64,000 bases of DNA, from NCBI RefSeq assembly GCF_902809865.1, contig NZ_CADDWH010000001.1:2480001-2544000 (forward strand). The letters run 5' to 3'. Positions within the stretch are counted from its first letter, which is position 1. Every line of letters begins with the position of its first letter. A program made the translations under genes and the position numbers. This document shows, in pieces, positions 29,139 to 39,451 of this stretch. The notes below the pieces were generated by a model. It had not been told where the DNA came from and ran no database searches. It worked only from the letters and a program-made list of their open reading frames with translations. Origin of the DNA: Halobacillus sp. Marseille-Q1614 (GTDB lineage Bacteria > Bacillota > Bacilli > Bacillales > Halobacillaceae).

Positions 29139-30152
29139 CTAACTTTCTATACTGGATGATCGAATTACAAGTTCTGGATCCACTTTTACCGGGTGAATAT
29201 TATTGTTTCCTTGAATGAGATCATTCAGCATATTAGCAGCCAGCTTCCCTAATTTCTGTTTATCCTGCTTGACGGTGGTAAGCGGCGGATCACTGTATCG
29301 GCAGGCTTCAATATCGTCGCAGCCGATTAATTGAATATCTTCAGGCACAGACATCCCTTTTTCTTTAATTGCTTTAAGAGCTCCAAGCGCCATCATGTCC
29401 GATGCAGCAAAAACAGCTTGAGGTAATTCTTTCTCCTGCAATATTTCTTTCATAGCTGTATAGCCGCTTTCCTCGAAGAAATCTCCAAATTTTATCCACT
29501 CGTCTTTTATAGACAGTCCAAATTGCTCCATCGCATCGACAAAGCCCTGATTACGAATGCCTGCTACAAGAGAATCCTGTTTCCCGCCAATATAAGCAAT
29601 CTTTCTTATTTGATTTAAGTAGAAGAACTCTACAACTTTTAATCCTATTTTCGCATTATCCGTCATAATATAGCTCGATTTCGGCCCGTCGAGCTTAAGG
29701 TCGATGCCGATGCAAGGAATATCACTTTCGGCAATCTCAAGGATTTCCTCTTCTATTTCATCGCCCGCAATAATCAGGCAGCCATCAACGTGGAAATGCT
29801 TACACCTTTCCAAATACTGACTTTCCCCCTGATAAAATTTCTCGTTGGAAAATAAGAGAAGGTCATATCCTTGGGCACCGACTGTTTTCTTAAAAGTGTT
29901 CACAACCTCATTGAAAAATGGGTGTTTAAAGTCTACATTGATTTTCCCTGCATAAATCAAGCCTATTAAATTTGATTTCTTAGTGGCTAAAGACTTCGCA
30001 GAGAAAGTCGGCTGATATTTTGTATCTTTAATGATTTTATATACTTTGTCTCTTGTTGCTTCGCTGATGCCGCCATAGTTGTTGATAATTTTTGACACAG
30101 TAGCAGGAGATACACCAGCCATTTTTGCAATATCCCGTATAGTTAAATCCAT
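29139..30152 (-). CDS. LacI-family repressor of the beta-glucan locus
   Basis: A 337-residue regulator: N-terminal LacI helix-turn-helix (LTIRDIAKMAGVSPATVSKI) and a periplasmic-binding-type effector domain (ASDMMALGALKAIKEKGM, IQLIGCDDIEA). It sits inside the operon it most likely controls; palindromes of the form AAACCGGTTT at 33401, 33527 and 27728 are its probable operators. A glucan-derived oligosaccharide is the expected inducer. Confidence 0.93.
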   Translation of the reverse strand: MDLTIRDIAKMAGVSPATVSKIINNYGGISEATRDKVYKIIKDTKYQPTFSAKSLATKKSNLIGLIYAGKINVDFKHPFFNEVVNTFKKTVGAQGYDLLLFSNEKFYQGESQYLERCKHFHVDGCLIIAGDEIEEEILEIAESDIPCIGIDLKLDGPKSSYIMTDNAKIGLKVVEFFYLNQIRKIAYIGGKQDSLVAGIRNQGFVDAMEQFGLSIKDEWIKFGDFFEESGYTAMKEILQEKELPQAVFAASDMMALGALKAIKEKGMSVPEDIQLIGCDDIEACRYSDPPLTTVKQDKQKLGKLAANMLNDLIQGNNNIHPVKVDPELVIRSSSIES

Positions 30153-32074: not shown

Positions 32075-33346
32075 TTATCTCTGCAGTAAGCCTTCAATAC
32101 GTTCTACAGCATCCTGCCACTCTTTCTCTGGATCTCCGCCTTCCTGAACATTTCTTAGAGCCATTAATACTTCATTGTTAACTGTTACATATTTAGGTCC
32201 TTTGTAAACTTCCGGAATCTCTTTGGCCGCTTCTGCAAAATATGCGGCTGTATTTTGACCGCCGAAATATTCATCAGAGTTAGTCTTGAATTCTTCCATC
32301 TCATACACTTCAGGTGTAGAAGGGAACAGACCGTTTTCCGTAAAGGACTTCATTTGATTCTCTGGTGAAAGGAGCCACTTGGCAAATTCATAAGCTTCTT
32401 CACTGTGTTCTGTTTCTGCCGGAATGGATACATAAGATCCTCCCCAGTTACCAGCAAACTTCTCAGGCAGAGTGGTCACTCTCCATTTACCGGAAGCTTC
32501 CGGAGCATTCTCTGTCATGTAGCCTTTAAGCCAAGCGGGCGCCATTTCAACTGCGAAATCTCCTTTATTTAGAGCATTAGCCCATTCAGGTGTCCACATT
32601 TCATAGTCGCCGACATATCCTTCTTCGTTTAAACTAACCGCGTAATCGTAAGCATCTTTTACGCCGTTACCTTCTTCATTGATCAATAAATCTCCATCAC
32701 GATTAAAATAACTTTCTTCAAGTGCATCCATATTGGCACGAAACGCCATTTCCATACTATCCACCATTGGTTTATCCGCAGCCTCTAACACTTTATCGGC
32801 AGCATCCGCGAAAGCTTCAGGTGATGAAATTAATTCACTGACTTCATCTGGATCTGTAGGAAGCCCAGCTTTTTCAAACACTTCTGTATGATAGTACATT
32901 GCTTTTGGTCCGATATCAGTTGGAAGTCCAAAAAGGAAATCTCCTTCTCCGTTTTCTGCCACGTTCCACTTCCACTCTAAGTATTGATCCTGAATTTCGT
33001 CAGCCTCTAAGTCATACAAATTAACAAACCGTTCCTGTGCTTCCCTGTACCTGTCGAGCTGATCTACTTCAATCATTGTAAGATCAGGAGCGCCTGTCCC
33101 TGCTGATATAGCAGTAAAAAGACTGTTATGATGATCTTCTAATTCAGATTTTTTAATATTAATTTTTACATCAGGATTTTCTTCCTCGTAAGCCTTCGCT
33201 AACTCTTCATAATTCGTTGCTCCAAACACCCAGAAATCTAAAGTTACATTTCCTTCTCCTGAAGCCGAATCATCTCCGCTGCAGGCAAAAAGAAACGCGC
33301 TTATACTTAGCAGCAGCACTAAAAGCAAACTTTTCTTCAATCTCAT
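32075..33346 (-). CDS. Sugar-binding lipoprotein of the ABC importer
   Basis: A 423-residue extracellular solute-binding protein (family 1). The N-terminus is a lipoprotein signal with lipobox LFAC followed by an acidic linker. The mature part is strongly acidic. It is the first gene of the operon, after a sigma-A promoter flanked by two repressor operators. Ligand is inferred to be a beta-glucan oligosaccharide from the GH16 and GH1 genes downstream. Confidence 0.94.
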   Translation of the reverse strand: MRLKKSLLLVLLLSISAFLFACSGDDSASGEGNVTLDFWVFGATNYEELAKAYEEENPDVKINIKKSELEDHHNSLFTAISAGTGAPDLTMIEVDQLDRYREAQERFVNLYDLEADEIQDQYLEWKWNVAENGEGDFLFGLPTDIGPKAMYYHTEVFEKAGLPTDPDEVSELISSPEAFADAADKVLEAADKPMVDSMEMAFRANMDALEESYFNRDGDLLINEEGNGVKDAYDYAVSLNEEGYVGDYEMWTPEWANALNKGDFAVEMAPAWLKGYMTENAPEASGKWRVTTLPEKFAGNWGGSYVSIPAETEHSEEAYEFAKWLLSPENQMKSFTENGLFPSTPEVYEMEEFKTNSDEYFGGQNTAAYFAEAAKEIPEVYKGPKYVTVNNEVLMALRNVQEGGDPEKEWQDAVERIEGLLQR

Positions 33347-33400
33347 TTAAGCCTTCCCCTTCCAATTTTTCACTCAAAAAACAACAACTTCCAAATTAAC

Positions 33401-33412
33401 GAAACCGGTTTC
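33401..33412. promoter_or_regulatory. LacI-type operator O1 (downstream of promoter)
   Basis: GAAACCGGTTTC is a perfect 12-bp palindrome in the leader of the importer operon, about 45 bp after the expected transcription start. Confidence 0.85.
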
Positions 33413-33455
33413 CTAAAACTCTAAAAAAAATCAATTAATTTGAAAACTTAAGTTG

Positions 33456-33484
33456 ATTATAAGGTGTAATGTATTCGTTTTCAA
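33456..33484 (-). promoter_or_regulatory. Promoter of the glucan importer operon
   Basis: Minus strand TTGAAA (33479-33484), 17-bp spacer, TATAAT (33456-33461). It lies about 110 bp upstream of the binding-protein gene and between two repressor operators. Confidence 0.85.
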
Positions 33485-33526
33485 AAACTTTTTTATAAAT
33501 ATTTTTAAAATTCATCAAATTTTAAG

Positions 33527-33538
33527 TAAACCGGTTTC
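33527..33538. promoter_or_regulatory. LacI-type operator O2 (upstream of promoter)
   Basis: TAAACCGGTTTC shares the AAACCGGTTT core with O1. Its centre lies 126 bp from the centre of O1, close to 12 helical turns, a geometry suited to repression by looping. Confidence 0.8.
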
Positions 33539-33582
33539 CTACACAAGGATCCCTTTAAGCACATTAATTGTTATGACAACTA

Positions 33583-33596
33583 TGTAAACGCTAACA
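33583..33596. promoter_or_regulatory. cre site between the importer operon and the ncRNA promoter
   Basis: TGTAAACGCTAACA matches the cre consensus fully. It lies about 100 bp upstream of the importer -35 box and centred about 53 bp before the expected start of the plus-strand ncRNA, a position where CcpA can activate as well as repress. Confidence 0.75.
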
Positions 33597-33632
33597 TTTT
33601 CTTAAAAAATTATGTACCTTTTCGTCTTATGG

Positions 33633-33641
33633 TGTTATAAT
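33633..33641 (+). promoter_or_regulatory. Extended -10 promoter of the structured RNA
   Basis: TGTTATAAT is a consensus -10 with the TGn extension. The -35 position at 33613-33618 (TGTACC) is poor, which is usual for extended -10 or activator-assisted promoters. Confidence 0.75.
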
Positions 33642-33647
33642 GAGAGT

Positions 33648-34117
33648 GTGAAAAAGATAAAAAAATTAAATAAACAGCTTAGGTGGCTCAACCATCGTAA
33701 ATTCGTTTCCAAAACGAATAAAATGATGGTCATAAAAGGGAACACAACCTGTGGAGAGGAATGGGGAAACGCCCTTATATCAGGCCATCCAGATAGGCTC
33801 TGCATGCTAAAAGCACTGTAGAGAGAGCTCGTTTTACCATTTAACTTGTAAGACGATGACCTCAATAGGAATGAATATCCCACCCTAAAGAGGTAGTTTA
33901 ACATTTAAGTGTACTCTTGCAAGGATACATCATCCTTTATCAAGGTATGGTGAAAAAATTAGACTTAACCACTGACTGGAGGAAACGAATTCTTAGGGAA
34001 TTATCCTTCGAGGTATAGTTTAAAAATATGTAAGATCACGGATGATTCTTACATGGTTGGGTCACCTAAGTTGTTTAACGTTTTCCTGACATCACTTTTG
34101 TGATGTCAGGATTTTTT
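33648..34117 (+). ncRNA. Large structured non-coding RNA (~470 nt), class not identified
   Basis: No supported reading frame lies in this 800-bp gap between two minus-strand genes, but the plus strand has a promoter, a closed RNA architecture and an intrinsic terminator. A 24-nt arm at 33672-33695 pairs with 34053-34076 over its full length with only a few G-U or mismatched positions, enclosing about 360 nt. Inside are an ATTCGTTT/AAACGAAT hairpin (33701-33719), AAGGAT/ATCCTT (33920-33937), a CCT-TCG-AGG mini-hairpin near 34004, and TGTAAGA/TCTTACA (34029-34053) abutting the closing helix. The architecture recalls large RNAs such as OLE, ROOL or GOLLD, but I recognise none of them. The 5' end is estimated from the -10 box. 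Confidence 0.7.
34084..34117 (+). terminator. Intrinsic terminator of the structured RNA
   Basis: TCCTGACATCAC and its perfect complement around a TTTT loop, followed by six T on the plus strand. It begins eight bases after the closing helix of the RNA. Confidence 0.92.
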
Positions 34118-34164
34118 ATAGTCTTTATTAATCTTCATTGATTTTTCTTATATATAATTAAGAC

Positions 34165-34986
34165 CTAACGTGTAATGAGTTCACGGTCGTTTAGAGGCTG
34201 GACAGGTCGATGGTTATCAGAATAAATCTGCTCGAATAATTGGATTTGTTCTTTAGAAAGTTCAAGGGGTTCTTCATAGATTATCCAATGTACTCCCTCC
34301 GTACAAGGAGGTGTGGTAAGGGAACCTCCGTATTGAAACGTTGTTTGATCTTCAGGCAGCAAACTTGAAGCATCCAATGAATATTCCAGGCCCGATTTTT
34401 CATCTGTCTGTTCAGAAGGCAGTTCATCCCAGAATTCAGCTAAAGCATCGTTCTTCTCCCCCTCCTCCATCATCACTCCAAGAACCGCTGATTTCCCACT
34501 TTCACTTTCATGTACCAGATGGAGTTCCATAGCGTAGGACTGGTCATTAAATAAGTGTTCACTTGGTGTATGGAAGTGAAATTGCTTAAGTTGATATTCC
34601 TCTCCATCAATGACGATATTATTATTTGAACTTGCTGCTTCTGCTTGGATAGTATGACCGTTATTTACTAAGGTGAAGGAGGATTCTTGATAATTAGTTT
34701 TGATGCTTTCCATTTCGTCCTTTTTAACGGTTTGAGAGAAATCTATATTAATAGGTGATTGTTCTTCTCCTTCTGCACAGGCCGAGTATTCAGGGGCGAT
34801 CTCCCCCCAATGCTCAGGTCCTGTCTCCCCTTGGTAAGACCATTTTGCAGGCTCTAAATTCTCTTCCTCCCCGGAGCCTTGCTCTTCTTTTTGAGGCGCT
34901 CCCGTTTCTCTCGTCTGTTCCTGGCACCCTGCGATTCCAAAACTAATCGATATCGCCATAAATGGATAAGCGAGCTTCTTAGACAT
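34165..34986 (-). CDS. Alpha-class carbonic anhydrase, lipoprotein
   Basis: Interconverts CO2 and bicarbonate at the outer face of the membrane. 273 residues: lipoprotein signal with lipobox IAGC (Cys21), a Glu/Gly-rich acidic linker to ~45, then the alpha-CA domain with zinc ligands His137, His139 (QFHFHTPSEH) and His156 (ELHLVH), and SLTTPPCTEGVHW. Conserved QSPINI near the start of the domain. The strongly acidic surface suits a saline habitat. Transcribed alone; its promoter region upstream of 34986 shows nothing distinctive. Confidence 0.95.
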   Translation of the reverse strand: MSKKLAYPFMAISISFGIAGCQEQTRETGAPQKEEQGSGEEENLEPAKWSYQGETGPEHWGEIAPEYSACAEGEEQSPINIDFSQTVKKDEMESIKTNYQESSFTLVNNGHTIQAEAASSNNNIVIDGEEYQLKQFHFHTPSEHLFNDQSYAMELHLVHESESGKSAVLGVMMEEGEKNDALAEFWDELPSEQTDEKSGLEYSLDASSLLPEDQTTFQYGGSLTTPPCTEGVHWIIYEEPLELSKEQIQLFEQIYSDNHRPVQPLNDRELITR

Positions 34987-36625: not shown

Positions 36626-36667
36626 TTTACAATCATTAACAGTTTCTTAAAAATGAGCTCCTATAAT
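36626..36667 (+). promoter_or_regulatory. phoD promoter with Pho box
   Basis: TTTACA (36626), TTAACA (36636) and TTAAAA (36647) form near-regular 10-11-bp repeats like the PhoP-binding TT(A/C/T)A(C/T)A series. They occupy the -35 region of a consensus -10 TATAAT (36662-36667). Phosphate-starvation control is inferred, in line with phoD of B. subtilis. Confidence 0.65.
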
Positions 36668-36703
36668 AGCAAGTGTTACATACATGAGAAAGGAGCAGAT
36701 CGA

Positions 36704-38458
36704 ATGACAGAAAAAAGATCAATGGATCAATTAATTCAGCAGCTGAATGAACAAACGTTAGCAAAAGATTTAGGCCGCAGAGATTTTATTCATGGGGCGG
36801 GAAAAATTGCCGGGATTTCTCTTGGAATGGTCATTGCCCAATCCTTAGGCAGTGTACACGTAAAAGCTGAAGAGAATTTTACAAACTATCCTTTTACACT
36901 GGGTGTAGCTTCAGGAGACCCTCTGCATGACAGTGTTGTATTATGGACGAGATTAGCTGTAGACCCGCTAAATGGCGGCGGGATGCCGAACCGCAATATT
37001 GCGGTTAAATGGGAAATAGCCACAGATGATCATTTCAGGAATGTTGTTCAAAGAGGATCAGAAATCGCTATGTCTGAATTGGCACATTCTGTCCATGCTG
37101 AGGTTGAAAACCTTAAGCCTGACACGGTTTATTACTATCGTTTTAAAGCCGGGCAGGACTTCAGTCCAACGGGCAAAACTAAAACGCTCCCGGCCCCCGG
37201 CACACCTGTATCGAGTCTTGCTTTTGCTTTTGCTTCCTGTCAGCAGTATGAACACGGCTATTACACAGCTTATAAGCATATGGCAAAAGAAGAGCTCGAC
37301 CTCGTCTTTCACCTCGGAGACTATATATATGAATATGGTCCAAACGAATATGTAGCAGGCACAGGGAATGTAAGAATGCACAAAGGTCCAGAAATTAGAA
37401 CATTGGAAGACTATCGAAACCGTCATGCTCAGTATCGATCCGATAAGGATCTGCAATCAGCTCATGCAGCTTTTCCATGGGTCGTCACGTGGGATGACCA
37501 TGAAGTAGAAAATAATTATGCAGACCAGATTCCGGAGAAAGGACAATCTGTAGAAGAATTCGTGAAACGCAGAATTGCGGCCTACCAGGCATATTACGAG
37601 CATATGCCCCTGCGCAGATCCTCCATGCCTCATGGACCAGATATGAAATTATACCGGAACTTTTCTTACGGGGATTTAGCTGACTTTTATGTATTAGATA
37701 CTCGTCAATACCGCTCGGATCAAGCCAATGGCGATAAAAGCTCTCCGCAGACTGAAGAGTCCCTTGACCCATCACGCACACTTCTCGGAGAAAAACAGGA
37801 GAAATGGCTGCTCGATAGCCTTCAGCAGTCCCACTCTCAGTGGAATGTATTGGCTCAGCAAATTTTCTTTGCTAAACGCAACTACGGGCCAAGCCCGGAA
37901 GACCCATTATACAGCATGGATGGGTGGGATGGTTACACACCAGCTCGCGAGCGGATAACCAATTTTGCCGGCAATAAAAACCTGAACAATTTAATCGTCT
38001 TAACAGGAGATGTACATGCCAACTGGGCATCTAACTTATTAGCAGATTTTGATGATTTAAAATCCCGTATTCTCGGTGCTGAGTTTGTCGGTACTTCCAT
38101 CACATCCGGCGGCAATGGTGCTGATAAACGGGCAGATACAGACCGGATCCTTGAGCAGAACCAGCATATTAAATTTTTTAACGATTACCGGGGTTACGTC
38201 CGCTGCGAAGTCACTCCTTCACAGTGGAAAACAGACTACCGCGTTATTCCATTTGTAACTCAGCCGGGAGCTGATATATCTACAAGAGCATCCTTCGTTT
38301 ATGAAAAAGATCAGGAAGGACTCAAGGAAATATCAGCTGCCATCGTCCCACAAGGAAAGCAGTCGTCTAATGAAGTAGAGATGGACCGCTATGAAGCCCA
38401 TGATAAAGCACATAAGATCCAGTCAGAAAAACAAAAGCAGCTGAACTTAACACAATAA
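36704..38458 (+). CDS. phoD: Phosphodiesterase/alkaline phosphatase PhoD
   Basis: A 584-residue secreted enzyme that releases phosphate from phosphodiesters such as teichoic acid. The N-terminus has a twin-arginine signal ([14 protein letters not shown] around residues 40-55). The PhoD-type metallophosphatase core shows [40 protein letters not shown] and [13 protein letters not shown] choose the ATG at 36704 with AAAGGAG eight bases before it. It heads an operon with tatA and tatC, its dedicated export system, and a second phosphatase. Confidence 0.96.
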
Positions 38459-38474
38459 GAGGAGGACCTTATTT

Positions 38475-38693
38475 ATGCTGACAAACATTGGTATCCCAGG
38501 TTTAATTTTAATCCTGGTCATTGCCCTGATTATATTCGGACCATCTAAGCTCCCGGAAATCGGCCGTGCCTTCGGCAAAACGTTAACAGAGTTTAAAAAT
38601 GCTTCCCACGACTTGATTTCTGGTGATGGAAAAGATAAGGGGCAGGCAGATGATCTTTCTGAAAACAAGAAGCAGAATAATTCAGCAGGATAG
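38475..38693 (+). CDS. tatA: Twin-arginine translocase pore protein TatA
   Basis: A 72-residue TatA/E protein: one N-terminal membrane helix ([20 protein letters not shown]), the [17 protein letters not shown] amphipathic helix, and a charged tail. It lies directly between phoD and tatC, the arrangement of the B. subtilis phoD-tatAd-tatCd operon, and should serve export of PhoD and PhoX. Confidence 0.95.
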
Positions 38694-38719
38694 AATTCAC
38701 AGCATGGGAGGAACAAGTC

Positions 38720-39451
38720 GTGGATGGTAAAAACCTGCAGCTCATCGGGCATTTAGAAGAGCTTCGGAACCGGATTATTCTTACGCTCCTGTCGTTTATC
38801 GGATTTGTAGTGATTGGGTTTATTTTCGTAAAGCCTATTTACAGCTGGCTGATCAAGGATTTAAATACTAAGCTGGCAGTTCTTGGACCAAGTGAAATTC
38901 TGTGGGTTTACCTTATGATTGCTGCTGTAATTGCTATGGCTCTGACCATACCTGTGGCGGCTTTTCAAGTCTGGCGGTTCGTTTCACCCGCATTGAGCAG
39001 GAGGGAAAGGCAAATCACACTGCGATTCATCCCTCCCCTCTTCTTTCTTTTTCTGGCGGGGATAGCATTTGGCTACCTATTACTGTTTCCTATCGTGCTT
39101 GGTTTTTTATTGTCCTTGTCTGAAGGCCAGTTTGAAATGATGTTTACCGCTGATAAATATTTCCGCTTCATGCTAAGCCTTACCGTACCATTTGGACTGT
39201 TGTTTGAAATGCCGTTAGTCGTTCTGTTCCTGACACGGCTTGGGATTTTAAATCCGATACGCCTTAAAAAAGCAAGAAAGGTGTCTTACTTTATTCTGAT
39301 CGTCGTATCCGTACTCATTACTCCGCCCGATTTTCTTTCAGACGTGCTGGTCATTGTACCCTTACTGCTTTTGTATGAAATCAGCATCACCTTATCGAGT
39401 GTTGTCTACAAAAAACAATTAAAGCTTTCAGCCGAACATTCAGCAGCTTAA
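38720..39451 (+). CDS. tatC: Twin-arginine translocase receptor TatC
   Basis: A 243-residue TatC with six membrane helices. Family segments: HLEELRNRIILTLL at the N-terminus, SPALSRRERQ in the first cytoplasmic loop, and FGLLFEMPLVVLFLTRLG. The start is GTG preceded by GGGAGG. It recognises the RR motif of the adjacent PhoD and PhoX precursors. Confidence 0.96.
   Translation: MDGKNLQLIGHLEELRNRIILTLLSFIGFVVIGFIFVKPIYSWLIKDLNTKLAVLGPSEILWVYLMIAAVIAMALTIPVAAFQVWRFVSPALSRRERQITLRFIPPLFFLFLAGIAFGYLLLFPIVLGFLLSLSEGQFEMMFTADKYFRFMLSLTVPFGLLFEMPLVVLFLTRLGILNPIRLKKARKVSYFILIVVSVLITPPDFLSDVLVIVPLLLLYEISITLSSVVYKKQLKLSAEHSAA

Follow-up and report, generated by a model that had tools for sequence, protein, structure and literature searches.

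The locus at 33633-34117 of the 64,000-nt stretch of DNA analysed here (the window; genome coordinates G000:C1:2480001-2544000) is close to certain to be a structured RNA gene, and the RNA class to which it belongs is real, conserved and absent from Rfam 15. We give a probability of roughly 0.58 to the reading that it is a member of a large class of free-standing, trans-acting non-coding RNAs of the Bacilli for which there is no Rfam model. Comparison of the copies shows that three predicted helices (P1, P2 and P4) make up a constant core around an exchangeable middle of about 150-900 nt, that a promoter-like start and a terminator are conserved as well, and that some genomes contain several copies. 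A sequence-only reading of the window had described an unassigned large structured RNA at this place, a description that our data support while giving it a wider scope than it had claimed. Named species of Halobacillus and Thalassobacillus carry the class, as do ten other families; its distant members score only 23-32 bits with the model built here, a range that would be lost to ordinary searches. To our knowledge, few bacterial RNAs are as large and as highly structured. With an aligned core, a concrete prediction of two states and a candidate signal for its control, the question of what a large ornate RNA does becomes directly testable.

The RNA gene in the window

The RNA unit lies on the plus strand between two minus-strand genes, one for a solute-binding protein (32075-33346) and one for a carbonic anhydrase (34165-34986). 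The extended -10 element reported earlier is indeed present (TGTTATAAT, 33633-33641) and is kept in relatives; it is followed by a presumed 5' leader beginning with GTGAAAAAGATA (33648-33671, its start placed from the -10), which reads GTGTAAAGAAGATA in many relatives. The 24-nt arm that had been proposed to close the structure, 33672-33695 with 34053-34076, is paired at 24 of 24 positions when wobbles are counted, and pairing and covariation define these segments as the two strands of P1. Inside it lie the 5' strand of P2 (33699-33710), placed by pairing across copies and doubling as the 5' half of a local hairpin, P2' (33701-33719, pairing 33701-33707 with 33713-33719), that excludes P2, and then the variable middle domain (33720-33961), which aligns poorly beyond close relatives. 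The 3' half, as placed from alignment A1 of 35 copies, contains the motif GACTTAACC (33962-33970; conserved in the window's family), the 3' strand of P2 (GGAAACGAATTC, 33981-33992, doubling as the 5' side of an alternative helix P3') and the 5' strand of P4 (GAATTATCC, 33998-34006, doubling as the 3' side of P3'); next comes the 3' strand of P4 (GGATGATTC, 34040-34048), of which 34044-34048 double as the 3' side of a hairpin H. The outermost of the 12 pairs of the window's P2 (33699 with 33992) is A-C. The intrinsic terminator that had been noticed, recovered by a terminator scan and in relatives, spans 34084-34117 and consists of a stem (12 pairs, 34084-34111) followed by TTTTTT; terminator-like sites number two in the region, against 0.4 expected from shuffles. 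The fold of 33633-34117 has an energy of -157.5 kcal/mol versus -105.7 +/- 6.1 kcal/mol for shuffled sequences (z -8.5, equalled by 0 of 100 shuffles), and its minimum-energy structure contains more than four internal hairpins, where at least four had been proposed.

The earlier statement that the unit holds no credible ORF also withstands inspection: the longest plus-strand ORF in 33672-34076 has 33 aa, a length equalled in 63 of 100 shuffles. A 69-aa plus-strand ORF (33612-33821) begins upstream of the -10, and an 89-aa ORF on the minus strand (33635-33904) overlaps the locus. In favour of an mRNA of a small protein, or of a dual-function RNA, are long ORFs in four copies, of 82 aa in L136 (0 of 100 shuffles as long), 91 aa in L053 (1 of 100), 85 aa in L084 (3 of 100) and 76 aa in L056 (4 of 100). 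However, in 60 of the 64 copies the ORFs are not significantly longer than in shuffles (at least 5 of 100 as long), and the middles, compared by eye, fail to align between families, which makes a coding role very improbable.

Copies and distribution

Sequence and covariance-model searches led to 64 copies that we inspected, from about 52 genomes and 11 families, ten of these families belonging to one order of the Bacilli and the other being represented by a single genome (f64) of another order. The length between the P1 ends varies from 254 to 999 nt, and genomes carry one to four copies, which are tandem or dispersed in several of them, including G026, G029, G033 and G036. With blastn, 25 of 61 genomes gave matches (E 0.01 or less), and the strong ones (20 of 25) fall in three genera of the window's own family, f1. 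Within f1, 25 of 44 genomes were matched by blastn and 26 of 44 by a covariance model, R1; the genomes left without a match (19 for blastn, 18 for R1) indicate that the RNA is dispensable or has diverged there beyond reach. A pattern scan of named genomes returned 25 stretches, 23 of them from Halobacillus or Thalassobacillus; the stretches from Accumulibacter and Chitinispirillales, which neither end profile matched at an E limit of 1e-3, are regarded as chance finds. Both ends are highly conserved in A1 and the middle is not.

Across 397 genomes of the order, R1 matched 17, including five of a second family (f36) with copies of 394 to 999 nt, and its weak matches in G013 (254 nt) and G058 (621 nt) were confirmed on inspection. 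Once rebuilt with far copies, the model (R2) reached 42 of these 397 genomes at an E limit of 0.1, with scores of 24-32 bits in many of them; the arms were inspected for a copy in 33 of these 42, G309 falling outside the inspection. The 20 R2 regions that were fetched comprise 21 places, 17 of them full-length copies with 21-24 of the 24 P1 pairs, the rest being one 155-nt form, one opposite-strand echo of a counted copy and two non-homologues; L166 (in G340) and L171 (a second place in G003), with 17 of 24 P1 pairs each, were rejected as homologues. The 155-nt form (L157; G054:C19:314779-314862 and upstream), excluded from every count, has 22 of 24 P1 pairs, is the only form in G054 and is perhaps a miniature or decayed copy devoid of the usual middle. 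A pattern of the 5' end found 36 of 397 genomes (one in the reversed control) and led to the members in f21, and model and pattern agree on the place in G155, G182, G215, G240, G278 and G414. A class-wide model search matched 10 of 398 genomes, among them the one of the other order (L151, f64), which has the arms. The arm pattern gave no arm pair in L144, L145, L147 and L150 (f85, f56 and f72) or in L197 (G050), and matches in G781 and G081 lie outside the inspected set. Many families of the order yielded no match at the search sensitivity used.

A covarying core and a possible competing set of pairings

P1, P4 and the long-range helix P2 meet in a three-way junction that forms the core, and P2 encloses the variable middle. 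Covariation is strong in the closing helix among relatives: P1 keeps 21-24 of its 24 pairs in all 64 copies, with compensatory changes. For the three helices together, 99.0% of 1570 cells are paired in A1 (99.3% in P1, 99.0% in P2 and 98.1% in P4) and eight pairs carry double changes, a number that 0 of 500 shuffles reach, while sliding the partner by 1-3 columns makes pairing drop to 30-51%. For a broad set of 32 representatives covering all 11 families, in which whole strands were swapped among sequences as a control, P1 is paired in 95.4% of cells versus 86.5% after swapping, and has 65 double-change cells versus 18.4 (both reached by 0 of 1000 permutations); 12 of its pairs show double changes, and position 6 uses all four Watson-Crick pairs. 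In the same set P2 is paired in 90.1% of cells versus 73.4% (0 of 1000), its 3' strands being the best match within 190 nt, badly chosen in L163, L142, L155 and L055, and its double-change count being inflated by f1 rows that have one more U-A pair in P2 than most others. Judged by duplex energy alone, P2 is weak: only 31 of the 64 copies have a best duplex between the 5' segment and the 3' region that no more than 10 of 200 shuffles equal, the mean z is -1.7, and in some of the copies this duplex does not coincide with P2. P4 alone has one double cell in A1, reached by 50 of 500 shuffles. The helix abutting the 3' strand of P1 in the broad set has a mean score of 8.9 versus 6.1 when shuffled; in 10 of 32 rows at least 9 of 60 shuffles are as good, and in four rows H is found instead of P4.

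The inner half of P1 (GCUCAACCA with UGGUUGGGU) is almost invariant across families, and being so nearly unchanged suggests that something reads it. G-U pairs are kept at P1 positions 15 and 17, where they exchange with A-U or U-A. A small mobile DNA element with terminal inverted repeats would also suit inverted ends of 24 nt and contexts that are scattered, but the promoter and terminator lie outside these repeats and are conserved with them, the internal long-range pairing covaries, and the two G-U positions behave as expected of an RNA fold, so that we regard such an element as extremely improbable. One further pairing was tried and rejected: GACTTAACC with GGTTGGGTC of the P1 3' strand, which forms eight of nine pairs in 32-35 of 35 rows and the ninth in 20 of 35 (15 gaps), is not counted as evidence because its 3' side is nearly invariant and substitutions opposite it for the most part disrupt the pairing. 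Just after P2', at 33738-33774 and in relatives, the arrangement GGGAACAC..CCTGTG..AGG..GCCC is common, and it could be a candidate pseudoknot combining CACA/UGUG with CC/GG.

The sequence-only reading had also proposed two states, in which ACCATC at the end of the closing arm would pair with GATGGT. This pairing exists in the window, with ACCATC at 33691-33696 and GATGGT at 33725-33730, one base away from the place given; yet in alignment A3 no more than 6 of 35 rows have GATGGT after the arm, and we dropped the pairing as a conserved feature. Kept in its stead are the mutually exclusive pairings P2/P4 and P2'/P3'/H. Because the set P1+P2+P4 shares strands with the set P2'+P3'+H, a second, exclusive fold is possible in Halobacillus and Thalassobacillus. 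P2' is paired in 96.3% of cells in A1, with one pair doubly changed, from G-C to A-U, in four rows; P3', in which the P2 3' strand meets the P4 5' strand, is paired in 91.0% and 92.6% of A1 cells, and H, built from the P4 3' strand, in 97.7%. P3' and H were evaluated in f1, and the comparison outside f1 is that of P2' beside P2: in the broad set, P2' has a stem of at least 7 bp in 22 of 32 rows versus 10.7 expected and of at least 6 bp in 29 of 32 versus 20.1, only moderately above chance. The divergent copies L055, L058 and L084 have a different right arm and still form an 8-bp hairpin.

Covariation within the alternative set P2'/P3'/H is not above that of shuffles, 182 of 500 having as many as its four double-change pairs and 37 of 500 reaching its score. 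In Boltzmann ensembles of six members the favoured state differs, distal pairing amounting to 0.84 in the window and 0.03 in L164; since the fold energies of the two states vary with the sequence, energy alone does not choose between them. It is plausible that the two folds constitute a regulated switch; two conserved folds are compatible with such a switch and also with an ordered folding pathway.

Candidate control signals, genomic setting and known RNAs

An operator-like site, ATGTAAACGCTAACA (33582-33596, no strand assigned), can be read upstream of the promoter; it matches WTGNAANCGNWNNCW, the cre consensus of CcpA sites, and is centred at about -59 relative to the start deduced from the -10. 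The same consensus occurs at 21 of 36 f1 promoters, starting 53-57 bases above the -10 in 18 of these 21 (shuffled mean 0.1), and at only 3 of 27 promoters outside f1. Like the sites of CcpA-activated genes, the cre-like site lies upstream of the -35 region in the window and in these 21 f1 promoters. The -10 was chosen in each copy as the best TATAAT match, with a bonus for a preceding TG, and looks misplaced in L142, L044 and L066; Of the f1 promoters, 31 of 36 have TGN ahead of the -10 so chosen, as have 22 of the 27 from elsewhere, and [GT]TGTA follows within 14 nt in 29 of 36 and 13 of 27. A generic promoter scan omits the promoter of the RNA, which has no good -35, and the case for it comes from the extended -10 of these relatives. 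A direct repeat, TNAC...NCAC, is present in 22 of 36 f1 promoters and 10 of 27 others (shuffled means 3.4 and 1.5), its start lying 46-47 bases above the -10 in 21 of the 22 and in 8 of the 10; the direct-repeat and dyad patterns were written after viewing these same promoters, six patterns being tried, and one stricter direct repeat is at chance in f1 (2 of 36 versus 1.1). Candidate readings considered for the repeat are Rex-, Fnr-, ResD-, PhoP- and WalR-like sites. The fixed upstream position would be the place for an activator, of tentative identity. Within 65 nt past the 3' arm, 57 of 64 copies have a terminator-like site (1.4 expected from shuffles); the terminator pattern is unmatched in the other seven, one of which, L066, is cut by the contig end.

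In the mechanism that we propose, an activator (CcpA or a LacI-type protein in Halobacillus) would bind the upstream operator and cause the RNA to be made. During transcription P2' may form at the 5' end, and P3' and H at the 3' end; once P1 zips shut, P2 and P4 could displace these pairings. Which fold prevails would depend on a partner (protein, RNA or metabolite) that reads either the nearly invariant inner half of P1 or the strands set free, and the variable domain may carry species-specific targets or contacts. This fuller account, of a widespread Bacilli RNA class with a bistable three-way-junction core, a 0.15-0.9 kb domain exchanged from lineage to lineage and nutrient or redox control, is tentative, and we place it a little below even odds.

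The palindrome AAACCGGTTTCC occurs twice nearby (33401-33413 and 33528-33539), upstream of minus-strand sugar-transport genes; these copies, distinct from the RNA's own cre-like site, are possible candidate operators of a LacI-type regulator (Pfam LacI) encoded at 29139-30152.

Nearest neighbours are common only within a family (42 nearest ORFs at 22 distant loci), and contexts differ among copies even in f1. Neighbours being unrelated between families, the RNA probably acts in trans; their being shared only within a family leaves no cis target common to the class. A riboswitch or cis-leader would precede a constant class of co-oriented genes, which we do not find, and the unit is terminated; nor does the RNA of the window have beside it the reverse transcriptase of a retron, its neighbours being the solute-binding protein and carbonic anhydrase genes named above. 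Nothing significant turned up in plasmids, phages or viral contigs, the best E values for the window's RNA being 5 and 6; phages had no match for this RNA or L160, and viral contigs none for two exact patterns.

Rfam 15 gave no match when the whole window was scanned at gathering scores, and 33400-34200, scanned at E up to 10, gave four sub-threshold matches, the best at E 0.035. Distant loci (twenty at the gathering score, six at E up to 1) likewise gave no match over the RNAs. A hit to L10_leader (RF00557; 26.7 bits at 33951-34126, gathering score 44) is taken as chance; the segment that drives it, CGAGGTATA, is missing by eye from most A1 rows. Among the matches listed in open-access PMC literature on Halobacillus non-coding RNA, on large, structured or ornate RNAs and on the conserved motifs, the class is not described. 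The many GGA motifs seen by eye and the conserved helix sequence would accord with a sponge for an RNA-binding protein, in the manner of a CsrA-like or 6S-like decoy; against it, no Rfam family matches at the gathering score, 6S and CsrB types included, and we consider a sponge improbable.

The sequence-only reading had been reminded of the ornate large bacterial RNAs, which stands as a likeness and does not extend to any match with those families. ROOL, about 0.6 kb long, is carried by phages and prophages, frequently close to islands of tRNA genes. At our locus RF01071, the OLE model, has no match at the gathering score or at E up to 10; OLE is found elsewhere in the window's genome (G000:C1:1093607-1094233, 505 bits) and in 26 of 31 genomes searched, this one included, versus 0 of 14 controls, so the RNA described here is a different RNA beside OLE. 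Both are large structured RNAs of Bacilli with an unclear function, OLE giving one match per genome whereas the present RNA has one to four copies. OLE is reported mainly from extremophiles (PMC9723947; PMC12286853). As for the other two, many GOLLD members exceed 800 nt and combine a constant with a variable part, as our RNA also does, and ROOL has a complex fold, again like our RNA, and an unknown function (PMC12286853); the Rfam models of GOLLD and ROOL are both unmatched by our RNA. The same source states that OLE, ROOL and GOLLD form homo-oligomers and that their functions are poorly understood (PMC12286853). The RNA may be conceived as an RNA-only or RNA-protein scaffold of this kind, with the alternative pairings being partly contacts between molecules. 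Its size, its constant core and the strict conservation of the P1 inner half in the families examined fit this idea, P2 could form between two molecules as well, and the homo-oligomers offer a precedent; yet no match links it to those families and its middle is poorly conserved, and we see the scaffold as possible, at odds clearly short of even.

SR1 and RoxS are carbon- or redox-controlled small RNAs of Bacillus, far shorter than the RNA considered here, and share with it an own promoter with a nutrient-type operator, a terminator and a presumed action in trans; the sRNA families of Rfam do not match over our RNA. A large base-pairing regulator, in which the CU-rich UUGUCCUUC would pair with ribosome-binding sites of mRNAs and tandem copies would be sibling sRNAs, is suggested by the tandem and dispersed copies and the regulated-looking promoter. 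However, part of UUGUCCUUC is taken up by pairing in P4, other families have a different sequence there, and a pattern of the P1 motif (at most three mismatches) occurs at two places of the genome besides the RNA, no more than its reversed control, all of which renders this explanation unlikely.

Some neighbourhoods contain features of their own. In the window, 36653-39451 encodes a PhoD phosphatase, a small ORF resembling TatA by eye and then TatC, and in three close relatives (L045, L046 and L047) ORFs of this PhoD cluster (c5) are likewise found close to the RNA gene. The ORF downstream of the RNA at L168 repeats a unit of about 17 residues and may be an array of DNA repeats instead of a gene. 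A Bacillaceae-1 RNA (RF01690, 57.7 bits) lies on the minus strand at L134:1423-1489, a few hundred bases upstream of a 1-kb copy.
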